64,000 nt of DNA, taken from Pelagibacteraceae bacterium AG-349-O05 (GTDB taxonomy: Bacteria > Pseudomonadota > Alphaproteobacteria > Pelagibacterales > Pelagibacteraceae). Under the pieces are notes generated by a model that worked only from the letters and a program-made list of their open reading frames with translations, did no database searches and was not told the origin of the DNA. Positions within the stretch are counted from its first letter, which is position 1. Each line of letters opens with the position of its first letter. Made by a program: the position numbers and the translations under genes. The stretch is from assembly GCA_003281005.1 (NCBI GenBank), contig QCDE01000003.1:1-64000 (forward strand), given 5' to 3'. Shown here one piece after another: positions 7,308-10,865 of the stretch.

Positions 7308-8762
7308 ATGAATCAAAACATAATAATAGATCCTTACGGCTTTAGAGAATATGACGCTCGTTGGTTGTATGAAAAAGACATAAATTCAGCTGGAATTGAG
7401 AATCTTGGTAAAGGACTTGGAACCCAAATAAAAATTCATACTAAAAAAGAAAATCCAAGAATCATAATTGGACATGATTACCGATCTTATAGCGAAGAAA
7501 TAAAAGCCACTCTTAAAAAAGGATTAATGTCTACGGGATGCAGCATAGAGGATATTGGTCTTTCATTGTCTCCTATGGTTTATTTTGCACAATTCAATTT
7601 GGATGCCGATGCAGTTGCAATGATTACAGCAAGTCATAATGAAAATGGGTGGACTGGTGTCAAAATGGGAATCAAAAAAGGGCTCACACATGCACCTGAG
7701 GAAATGAAAGAGTTAAAAGAAATTACCTTAAATGAAAAGTTCATAAAAGGTGAAGGTAGTGAAAAACAAATAAAAAATTTTGATAAAATTTATAAAGATG
7801 AGTTAATTAGTAAAAACAAAATTAAGAAAAAAATTAAAGCTGTGGTAGCCTGCGGGAATGGAACAGCAGGTGTTTTTGCTCCAGATATTCTAAAGGGTAT
7901 TGGGTGTGAGGTAATAGAGTTAGACTGTAACCTGGATTGGAATTTTCCTAAATACAATCCAAATCCTGAAGATTTAGAAATGCTTCATGAGATAGCAAAT
8001 GTAGTTAAAGAAAATAATGCTGATATAGGTTTTGGATTTGATGGTGATGGAGATAGAGTTGGAGTTATTGACGATAAGGGTAATGAAATATTTTCAGATA
8101 AAATAGGTCTTCTAATAGCAAGAAATTTATCAAGCAAACATAAAAATTCAAAGTTTGTAGTTGATGTAAAATCAACAGGTCTATACTCAAAAGATAAGAT
8201 TTTATTAGAAAACAATTGTAAAACAATTTATTGGAAAACAGGTCATTCTCATATTAAAAGAAAAGTGAACACTGAAAAAGCATTAGCAGGCTTTGAAAAA
8301 AGTGGTCATTTCTTTTTTAATCAACCTTTAGGATATGGTTATGATGATGGAATTAATTCAGCTATTCACATATGTCACCTATTAGACAATCAAAATAAAA
8401 AGATGAGCGAAATTATTAGTGAATTACCTAAGACATTTCAAACACCGACAATGGCACCTTTTTGTAAGGATGAAGAAAAATATTTAGTTGTTGAGGAGTT
8501 AGTTAAACAAATTGAACATTTAAAAAAAAATAATACAGAAATAGATGGTCAAATAATAAGTGATATTTTAACTGTTAATGGAGTTAGATTTTCATTTGAA
8601 GATGGTTCGTGGGGACTTATAAGAGCTTCTTCAAACAAACCATCTTTGGTTATTGTTACTGAAAGCCCAACATCAGATGAAAGAAAGAAAGAAATTTTTG
8701 ATTTTATTGACGATTTGTTACAAAAAACAGGTAAAGTCGGTGAATATGATCAGAAAATTTAA
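7308..8762 (+). CDS. Phosphomannomutase/phosphoglucomutase
   Basis: ORF track begins at a TTG (7260), but the ATG at 7308 (MNQNIIIDPYGFREYDARW) fits the family N-terminus better; TASHNENGWTGVKMG and GFDGDGDRVG motifs. Confidence 0.9.
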   Translation: MNQNIIIDPYGFREYDARWLYEKDINSAGIENLGKGLGTQIKIHTKKENPRIIIGHDYRSYSEEIKATLKKGLMSTGCSIEDIGLSLSPMVYFAQFNLDADAVAMITASHNENGWTGVKMGIKKGLTHAPEEMKELKEITLNEKFIKGEGSEKQIKNFDKIYKDELISKNKIKKKIKAVVACGNGTAGVFAPDILKGIGCEVIELDCNLDWNFPKYNPNPEDLEMLHEIANVVKENNADIGFGFDGDGDRVGVIDDKGNEIFSDKIGLLIARNLSSKHKNSKFVVDVKSTGLYSKDKILLENNCKTIYWKTGHSHIKRKVNTEKALAGFEKSGHFFFNQPLGYGYDDGINSAIHICHLLDNQNKKMSEIISELPKTFQTPTMAPFCKDEEKYLVVEELVKQIEHLKKNNTEIDGQIISDILTVNGVRFSFEDGSWGLIRASSNKPSLVIVTESPTSDERKKEIFDFIDDLLQKTGKVGEYDQKI

Positions 8763-9862
8763 TTTTTTAAATTATCCTCATCAGTTTTAGTTTCTAAATT
8801 ATCTTCTTTATTTTTAGTTTCTGAATTGTCACTGTTCTGATTGTTTTCTTGTTTAGAAATTTCATCACTATAAAACTTTTTGACCAATTCCTCCTCTTTT
8901 AATCTTTGTTCTTCATCAAATTTTTTCTCCCATTCTTTCATTCGCCTATTTTCCTCTTCAGTTCTCTCTTTTTGAGCTATTTCAGCTAATCGAATTCTTT
9001 CGTTTTCTTCTTCAATTCTTTTTTGTCTTTCCTCCTCTATTTTCAATTCTCTTTCTCTTTGACGTCTTTCATTTTCTTTATTTATTCTCTCACGCTCTGC
9101 TTCTTTAAGTTCTTTCTCTTTAATTCTTAATTCCTCTTCCCTGGCTCTTTGCTCAGCCTCTTCTTTTAAAATTTGTCTTTGAATTTCCTGCTGTCTTTCA
9201 GTTTCTAGATCTCTTAATCTTTGTTCCATTTCTTTAAGTTTTTCTTGCTCATATTTCAGCTTCCTAGCTGCCTCTCTTAATCTTTGTTCTTCCTCAAGTC
9301 TATTTTTCCTTTCAATTTCTTTTAATCTTATTTTTTCTTGTCTTTCTTTTTCTTTTTCATCTCTTCTCTTTTGAGCTTCAATTTCTTTACTTTTTAATTG
9401 TTCCTCTTTAATTTTTATATTTTCTTCTCTAATTCTTTGTCTCTCTAACATTTTTAGCCTTAAATCTTCTTCTTTAAACTTTCTGGCTTCCTCTCTAAGT
9501 TTTCTAGCTTCTTCGTCTTTAATTTTTTTCTGTTCTATTTTAATTCTTTGAGCTTCTACTTTTTGTCTTTTTTCTTCATTCTTTTTTTCTTGCTTTTCAT
9601 TTTCAATGATTAATTTTTTTTGAAAAAGAAGTTTCTTTCTTTCTTCTTTAAGTTCGTCTTGTTTAGCTTTTTTTGCTAATTTTTTTTCTAAAATTAATTC
9701 TCTTTTCTTCTCTTTTTCTAATTGTTTTTGTAATGCTAAATCTTTTTTAACTTTGTTTTTTTTTAAATCATTTACAAATGAGGAAAACTTATTTTTGGTT
9801 TTATCAATCGGATCAAATAAGTTCTTTTTAATATTTTTATTAATGTCTTTTATTGAAACCAT
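8759..9862 (-). CDS. Long charged coiled-coil / single-alpha-helix protein, unknown function
   Basis: Almost uninterrupted E/K/R/Q-rich sequence; ORF track starts at a TTG (9877), ATG at 9862 more likely. Confidence 0.75.
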   Translation of the reverse strand: MVSIKDINKNIKKNLFDPIDKTKNKFSSFVNDLKKNKVKKDLALQKQLEKEKKRELILEKKLAKKAKQDELKEERKKLLFQKKLIIENEKQEKKNEEKRQKVEAQRIKIEQKKIKDEEARKLREEARKFKEEDLRLKMLERQRIREENIKIKEEQLKSKEIEAQKRRDEKEKERQEKIRLKEIERKNRLEEEQRLREAARKLKYEQEKLKEMEQRLRDLETERQQEIQRQILKEEAEQRAREEELRIKEKELKEAERERINKENERRQRERELKIEEERQKRIEEENERIRLAEIAQKERTEEENRRMKEWEKKFDEEQRLKEEELVKKFYSDEISKQENNQNSDNSETKNKEDNLETKTDEDNLKN

Positions 9863-9948
9863 TTTTAAAAGTATCAATTAAGATAATAGCACTAAAGATT
9901 ATGTATGGCTAAATTGAGTTTTTATTTATTACTAAATACAACTTAAGA

Positions 9949-9977
9949 TTGTTATATTTTAAATTAGTTAATAAAAT
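9949..9977 (+). promoter_or_regulatory. Sigma70-like promoter candidate for + strand small RNA
   Basis: TTGTTA - 17 nt - TAAAAT. Confidence 0.45.
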
Positions 9978-9983
9978 GCATTT

Positions 9984-10074
9984 TCAACTAATAAGTGTTC
10001 TTAAACATGCGAAGAATCACTTAATTTTGATTCGTGAGGTGATGGAGGGAGACTGAAATCACCTCTTTTTTTTT
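9984..10074 (+). ncRNA. Orphan candidate small RNA
   Basis: Promoter-like sequence upstream, internal GAATCA/TGATTC stem, strong terminal hairpin plus T9; lies between two - strand genes with no + strand ORF. Confidence 0.5.
10036..10074 (+). terminator. Intrinsic terminator
   Basis: GAGGTGAT-ggagggagactgaa-ATCACCTC followed by TTTTTTTTT. Confidence 0.8.
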
Positions 10075-10079
10075 GCTTG

Positions 10080-10865
10080 TTATAATTTTAAGTATTCGTA
10101 AAAAAATTTAATCGAAACCACTAAAAGAAAAATTCCAAAAAACTTACTAATTTTATTCTTATCAATGCTGTGTACTGTTTTAGCTCCTATCCGAGCCATG
10201 AAAGTTGTAATTGGTATAAATATTAAAAATGCTGGTATGTTTATAAAACCAATACTTAGTGGAAGACTAGAATTTAAAAAACTTCCTGAAAGAAGAAATC
10301 CTACTGCTCCAAATAGAGCAATTAGAAAACCTATTGCTGCTGCACTCCCTATAGCTTTATTTATTGAATAACCAAAAAACTTAAGGATAGGTACATTCAT
10401 TACAGCTCCTCCAATACCCATAGGAGCAGATATAAACCCAACAAGAAAACCAAGAATTACTTTTAAATGTAATTTCATTTTAACAATTATGTTTTGCTCC
10501 TTTTCTTTTATTAAAAGTAAGTAAATTCCTAAAAATAAGATCATTACAGAAAAAAATAAAACTAAAGATTTGGTTTTTAGAGAAGCTGCAAAAACAGTTC
10601 CAACAATCACTCCTAGTACAACAAAAAGACCGTAATTCTTTACAATATCAAAATCAACTGCTTTAAATTTATGATGTGTTAAAACTGAAACTGTAGAGGT
10701 TGGTATTATGATTGCAAAAGAAGTTCCAACAGCAAGATGCATTACATATTGAGGATCAATTTCTAAAGAACCAAAAATAAAATATAAAAAAGGAACAGTT
10801 ATCAACCCTCCACCTATACCAAATAATCCAGCCACAAAACCTACTGGAATAGCTGTTAAAGCCAT
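10080..10865 (-). CDS. TauE/SafE (TSUP) family membrane permease
   Basis: ORF 261 aa; GFVAGLFGIGGGLITVP and SAPMGIGGAVMNVP repeats. Confidence 0.88.
   Translation of the reverse strand: MALTAIPVGFVAGLFGIGGGLITVPFLYFIFGSLEIDPQYVMHLAVGTSFAIIIPTSTVSVLTHHKFKAVDFDIVKNYGLFVVLGVIVGTVFAASLKTKSLVLFFSVMILFLGIYLLLIKEKEQNIIVKMKLHLKVILGFLVGFISAPMGIGGAVMNVPILKFFGYSINKAIGSAAAIGFLIALFGAVGFLLSGSFLNSSLPLSIGFINIPAFLIFIPITTFMARIGAKTVHSIDKNKISKFFGIFLLVVSIKFFYEYLKL

Follow-up and report, generated by a model that had tools for sequence, protein, structure and literature searches.

The plus strand of Pelagibacteraceae bacterium AG-349-O05 carries a perfect hairpin followed by a run of T between two minus-strand genes, a coiled-coil-like ORF (8759-9877) and a TauE exporter (10080-10865), and the question raised by this locus is what RNA, if any, is made there and what would make use of it. 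An earlier note on the same DNA, a stretch of 64,000 nt referred to here as the window, proposed an orphan small RNA of 90-95 nt with its own promoter and terminator. Its placement of the hairpin and T9 was exact, and the orientation of both neighbours was as described. Its account of the promoter, the transcript length, and the loop required revision, as described below.

Anatomy of the locus and its predicted promoter

The hairpin spans positions 10036-10065 (+). Its arms, GAGGTGAT (10036-10043) and ATCACCTC (10058-10065), pair perfectly over 8 bp and enclose a 14-nt loop, GGAGGGAGACTGAA (10044-10057), with the core GGGAGACU; the T9 (10066-10074) that follows supports an intrinsic terminator in this genome. 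The hairpin escaped the automated terminator scan, which allowed loops of at most 8. Folding z-scores were -2.6 for the 91-nt stretch (against shuffles) and -2.7 for the 41-nt hairpin RNA, and the element is single-copy in the AG-349-O05 genome. A phosphomannomutase-type gene (PMM) lies on the plus strand further left of the coiled-coil-like ORF. That ORF is long and belongs to no Pfam family; only some relatives have it between PMM and the element.

We searched 151 Pelagibacter genomes with the stretch, found clear matches in dozens of them, aligned 63 homologues, and built a covariance model from the alignment. The promoter first proposed, TTGTTA (9949-9954) and TAAAAT (9972-9977) separated by 17 nt, is present in the sequence but scored 9/12, and of 265 host copies only 11 have it. 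In several relatives the PMM gene has its coding end in this zone (9949-9977), and the region holds fewer promoter-like sites than its shuffled versions (12 versus 18.2); this pair is probably not the promoter of a hairpin RNA. The conserved unit is instead a compact promoter-like arrangement nearer the hairpin: TTNANA, an 18-nt spacer holding an invariant GAATC, then TANNNT. In AG-349-O05 the predicted -35 hexamer is TTCTTA (9998-10003) and the predicted -10 hexamer TAATTT (10022-10027). Across 214 host copies, in which the TTNANA element lies 18 nt upstream of the -10, the -35 positions read T170/T211/N/A161/N/A144, and the sixth position of the -10 is T in 178, counted on the hexamer after GAATCRNN with the TA of TANNNT fixed by the search pattern. 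In 176 of these copies, 5-6 nt separate the -10 from the base at which hairpin pairing begins. Perfect TATAAT hexamers occur in three relatives (L175, L177, L053); overall, agreement with TATAAT is only modestly above that of background TA-hexamers, and the argument for a promoter therefore relies mainly on spacing and invariance.

The GAATC (10014-10018), a GANTC site of the kind targeted by CcrM, lies 3 nt upstream of the -10; it is present in all 63 aligned copies and retained in element copies from other genera. An inverted repeat had been described here, GAATCA (10014-10019) and TGATTC (10028-10033) separated by 8 nt; the letters are there, but only the first arm, which belongs to the promoter, is conserved, and the repeat as such does not stand. 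Upstream of this, the 63-copy alignment shows a near gap-free order of a block TWCAAYTAWTAMGWGTT (9983-9999 in the window; alignment columns 7-23, mostly well conserved), 13 variable positions, and (A/C)GAATC(A/G)NNTA, with an insertion between the block and the GAATC motif in one lineage (L063, L075). The block is possibly an activator site or an extended -35 region. A helix joining it to the GAATC motif was considered and rejected (79.8% paired, without covariation).

Given the spacing of the conserved promoter (9998-10027) relative to the hairpin, transcription would start at or just before the hairpin, at about 10033-10035, and end in the T-run. The predicted transcript (10033-10074, +) would be about 40-41 nt long, essentially the hairpin alone, and not the 90-95 nt originally estimated. 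Judged by sequence only, the candidate has its own conserved promoter, and the proposal of an independent plus-strand small-RNA gene with a structured hairpin is supported.

The position of the GANTC site invites comparison with cell-cycle control. The conserved GANTC lies within the promoter, and the AG-349-O05 genome encodes both GcrA and a CcrM-like methylase, the latter adjoining an RNase HII-like gene, as would be expected of a GcrA/CcrM-controlled promoter. In Caulobacter, GcrA recruits RNA polymerase to methylated promoters (PMC7403470); by analogy, it may do so here. The locus would then offer CcrM/GcrA a candidate target that is non-coding, in an organism from which CtrA is reported to be missing (PMC2877005). 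CcnA of Caulobacter, whose CCCC loop acts on ctrA and gcrA mRNAs (PMC8959179), is an alphaproteobacterial non-coding RNA tied to the CtrA/GcrA cell-cycle circuit, as the candidate RNA may be to GcrA; the AG-349-O05 hairpin differs in its loop (GGGAGACU, not CCCC) and in the reported absence of ctrA from Pelagibacter (PMC2877005).

Distribution among SAR11 hosts

Covariance-model matches were obtained in five Pelagibacteraceae genera. In an order-level sample, matches were confined to two genera, both Pelagibacteraceae, and 95 of the 149 good genomes matched, a few by weak matches alone that we regard as chance. A class-wide sample of 289 genomes gave matches only in the genus Pelagibacter, plus one weak match (L138) that was without the conserved promoter motifs and was treated as a chance match. 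A second host family, suggested by weak model matches (below about 36 bits), was also rejected; these matches were without the motifs and chance-like, and several were coding-like.

Within Pelagibacter the element is patchy. Its absence from a substantial minority of good genomes indicates that it is not essential, and several genomes that lack it have the PMM stop codon immediately next to TauE, so that the absence is clean. Its context differs by genus, lying either between PMM and TauE or beside tRNA-Ser, which argues against a cis element of one gene. In one genus, g4 (L178 1514-1620; L179 1532-1638), the element is directly downstream of the tRNA-Ser gene, and just upstream of the element is a DnaA-box-like stretch similar to TTATCCACA. 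A few relatives hold two copies (L171 1507-1612 and 1987-2092; L172 1545-1650 and 4815-4921), and in L173 a second copy (2875-2979) is degraded in both loop and stem.

In several relatives the element directly follows PMM. This placement favors the explanation that it is a conserved 3'-end or terminator hairpin and nothing else: host copies would end PMM or other transcripts, phage copies (described below) would be mRNA-end or processing hairpins, and there would be no separate small RNA. Most host copies do carry a U-run, with at least five T within 8 nt after the hairpin in 49 of 63; the U-run is absent in the other 14 and after the copy in phage HTVC031P. In the window, moreover, PMM is cut off from the element by an opposing gene, the conserved promoter block runs up to the hairpin and stops there, and a terminator has no need of an invariant loop. 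We consider this explanation unlikely as a full account, while a simple role in transcription termination or mRNA stability explains some of the places where the hairpin sits.

Covariation of the stem and constraint on the loop

A lack of covariation in homologous regions had been named in advance as evidence against the candidate. The candidate came through this check, as the stem covaries far above shuffles. Among the 63 host copies, covarying column pairs were 62-89 (AU 43, GC 16, GU 4), 65-86 (UA 58, CG 4), and 67-84 (AU 39, GC 22), and stem covariation was 0.291, compared with 0.208 ± 0.012 in shuffled alignments and at most 0.128 in slid ones. When host and phage representatives were considered jointly, as a hand-chosen set of 23 types, 97.8% of cells were paired and covariation rose to 0.640 (0.202 ± 0.028 shuffled; at most 0.197 slid). 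Stems diverge further in other genera, to GGGCAG/CTGCC and GGCGGG/CCCGCC.

The loop is the most constrained part of the element: AGGGAGACU is unchanged in 63 of 63 aligned host copies, and the core GGGAGACU is near-invariant while stems vary. Folding predicts the core as GG-GAGA-CU, a GAGA tetraloop on two pairs. Some copies in other genera have a C-type loop, GCGGGAGACU(U/C/A)AA. The loop had been noted to carry a Shine-Dalgarno-like purine run, but mimicry is not the best reading of it; what is invariant is the core, whereas the GGAGG varies (AGAGGG, GCGGGAG), and mimicry of a Shine-Dalgarno sequence or of 16S by GAGGTGAT is lost through covariation in relatives. Binding of CsrA, or a role as a CsrA sponge, was also rejected, as CsrA was not found in the AG-349-O05 genome (87% complete). 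The protein-sequestering RNAs of the CsrB/RsmZ type are among the nearest known parallels, being stand-alone RNAs in which a conserved hairpin loop would bind a protein; they differ in that the AG-349-O05 element has one hairpin and another loop, in a genome where their partner was not detected.

A conserved, purine-rich loop in a stand-alone gene with a terminator could also belong to a trans-acting, base-pairing small RNA, with loop GGAGGGAGACU seeding on mRNA sites of the type AGUCUCCC and phage copies serving as competing seeds. Against this, the loop is predicted to be partly paired; its non-core positions change in a coupled fashion (see below), as in a folded ligand, and the only occurrence of AGTCTCCC within the window is the element's own antisense. 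We give this account little credence.

Copies in pelagiphages

The same hairpin was found in at least 260 IMG/VR contigs, a lower bound, since the patterns used for viruses prescribed most of the loop as well as the GG..CC ends of the stem; the constancy of these bases in viruses is to that extent a product of the search. The pattern GGNNNNRGAGGGAGACTGAARYNRCC matched 111 contigs, with all six tested pairs forming in 108 and as few as three in one (probably L310, which has GC-rich flanks). The C-type pattern matched at least 120 contigs, all listed matches having at least five pairs. The loop positions are coupled: A occurs together with G in 111 contigs and with A, T, or C (H) in 30, while C occurs with H in at least 120 and with G in none; three variants with G or T had poor stems.

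Among cultured pelagiphages, the hairpin is present in HTVC019P, HTVC022P, HTVC031P, HTVC131P, HTVC142P, HTVC201P, HTVC304P, Jormungand, and Ran, with variants in HTVC027P, HTVC105P, HTVC011P, and Bylgja; scans of HTVC010P, HTVC200P, and HTVC119P yielded none of this class. Scanned whole phage genomes that carry it have one copy each. Most of 231 contig copies, which are not independent samples since phage gene-order groups are few, fall on the coding strand in three settings: between phrog_2402 and primase (94), between lysozyme/amidase and a T7-like primase (46), and between capsid and tail tubular A (35). The copies sit in short co-directional gaps, a median of 25 nt after the stop and 20 nt before the start. 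The primase-side copies belong to two unrelated replication modules, and as the settings are different gene modules, shared ancestry of one junction does not explain them. The host upstream block was considered as a promoter for phage polymerase and rejected, with no match in HTVC019P or HTVC031P.

Phage T7 has a terminator after the capsid gene and an RNase III site after the lysozyme gene. That pelagiphage copies follow a capsid or lysozyme gene is a further point in favor of the terminator-only explanation, and the pelagiphage hairpins at lysozyme/primase and capsid/tail-tube junctions resemble the intergenic processing hairpins and post-capsid terminator of T7 in position. They differ from those in having 6-9 bp stems, an invariant loop, and, in HTVC031P, no U-run, and in having a host chromosomal copy.

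Proposed function and relation to known RNAs

The reading we favor, and to which we give an even chance on the sequence evidence, is that the element encodes a stand-alone hairpin RNA that binds a host factor, one that SAR11 phages exploit as well. The proposed mechanism is as follows: a sigma-70-type promoter with GANTC in its spacer would direct a start at or 1-2 bases before the first hairpin base, yielding a hairpin of about 40 nt with a U tail. The loop would act as a ligand of fixed three-dimensional shape, in which G-C and G-U pairs carry a GAGA tetraloop and non-canonical, purine-rich pairs lie beneath, and a host RNA-binding protein or a ribonuclease would bind it. By placing the hairpin between the genes of polycistronic mRNAs, SAR11 phages would recruit this factor or keep it occupied, most likely so that the mRNA is processed or stabilized at the junction. 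The host RNA would serve as free ligand of the factor, a decoy or regulator, possibly timed to the cell cycle through CcrM/GcrA. As host and phages share, as far as seen, only the hairpin, a host-encoded binding partner is the simplest inference, and the analysis suggests that host and virus use one shared RNA-binding factor. Weighing against this reading are the failure to find CsrA, the good Pelagibacter genomes that lack the element, the small number of phage gene-order groups, the fact that plain termination or mRNA stability would account for some placements, a pelagiphage (HTVC010P) without the hairpin, and the 14 of 63 host copies without a U-run. In its most specific form, in which a cell-cycle-timed RNA of about 40 nt binds a host protein and unrelated SAR11 phages independently adopted the hairpin in their mRNAs to capture that protein, the proposal is tentative and we think it somewhat doubtful.

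The same sharing could reflect conflict, with the host RNA mimicking a phage mRNA hairpin to titrate a factor the phage needs, or phages carrying the hairpin to escape a defence triggered by the host RNA. Patchy presence with clean absence, sites that differ between genera, and an identical loop in SAR11 phages from unrelated modules all fit an anti-phage decoy; no defence or toxin gene was identified beside the element, however, and the conserved GANTC promoter suggests a housekeeping schedule. We judge a decoy quite unlikely.

If the most specific form of the favored proposal is true, this would be among the shortest independent bacterial RNA genes, and an RNA control point common to both sides in one of the sea's most abundant host-virus systems. 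SAR11 and its phages rank among the ocean's most abundant organisms, and few SAR11 regulators are known. A hairpin common to the host and several phage lineages would offer a small bait for a host factor on which phages may depend, and its place in pelagiphage mRNAs points to a junction that is likely to be regulated.

An Rfam search, as the earlier note had advised, gave no family at gathering score; the best sub-threshold result was AniS (18.5 of 50 bits). The SAR11 motifs of Meyer et al. (2009; PMC2704228) comprise rpsB, rpsL, ffh, SAM-V, rhtB, pntA, bablM, and SAR11_0636. Of these, rhtB is similar in having a conserved hairpin, often followed by a U-run; no motif was reported at PMM/TauE, and none matched the AG-349-O05 element by cmscan. 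Stav et al. (2019; PMC6429828) listed intergenic candidates from SAR11 strain HIMB5, including one sRNA and two that ranked highly but had no assigned function; these may overlap with the present hairpin. In the searchable literature on pelagiphage or SAR11 small RNAs we found no description of the hairpin, though it may be listed among the Stav et al. candidates.

Additional features of viral genomes

A complete tRNA-like sequence, probably a phage attachment site, lies on the opposite strand directly after the hairpin in HTVC019P (L413 3046-3116, -). A second class of phage hairpin, with the loop AACACAGACAA, follows the capsid gene in several pelagiphages (HTVC019P, L417 21070-21105; L569, L573, L570); no host counterpart was matched in 31 Pelagibacter genomes. 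In HTVC011P the AACACAGACAA hairpin stands in tandem after the GGGAGACU hairpin. Finally, one viral group (L335, L361, L383, L399, L408) has GGCCGT/GCGGCC stems, with a T-rich tail in some members and neighboring genes often on the other strand.
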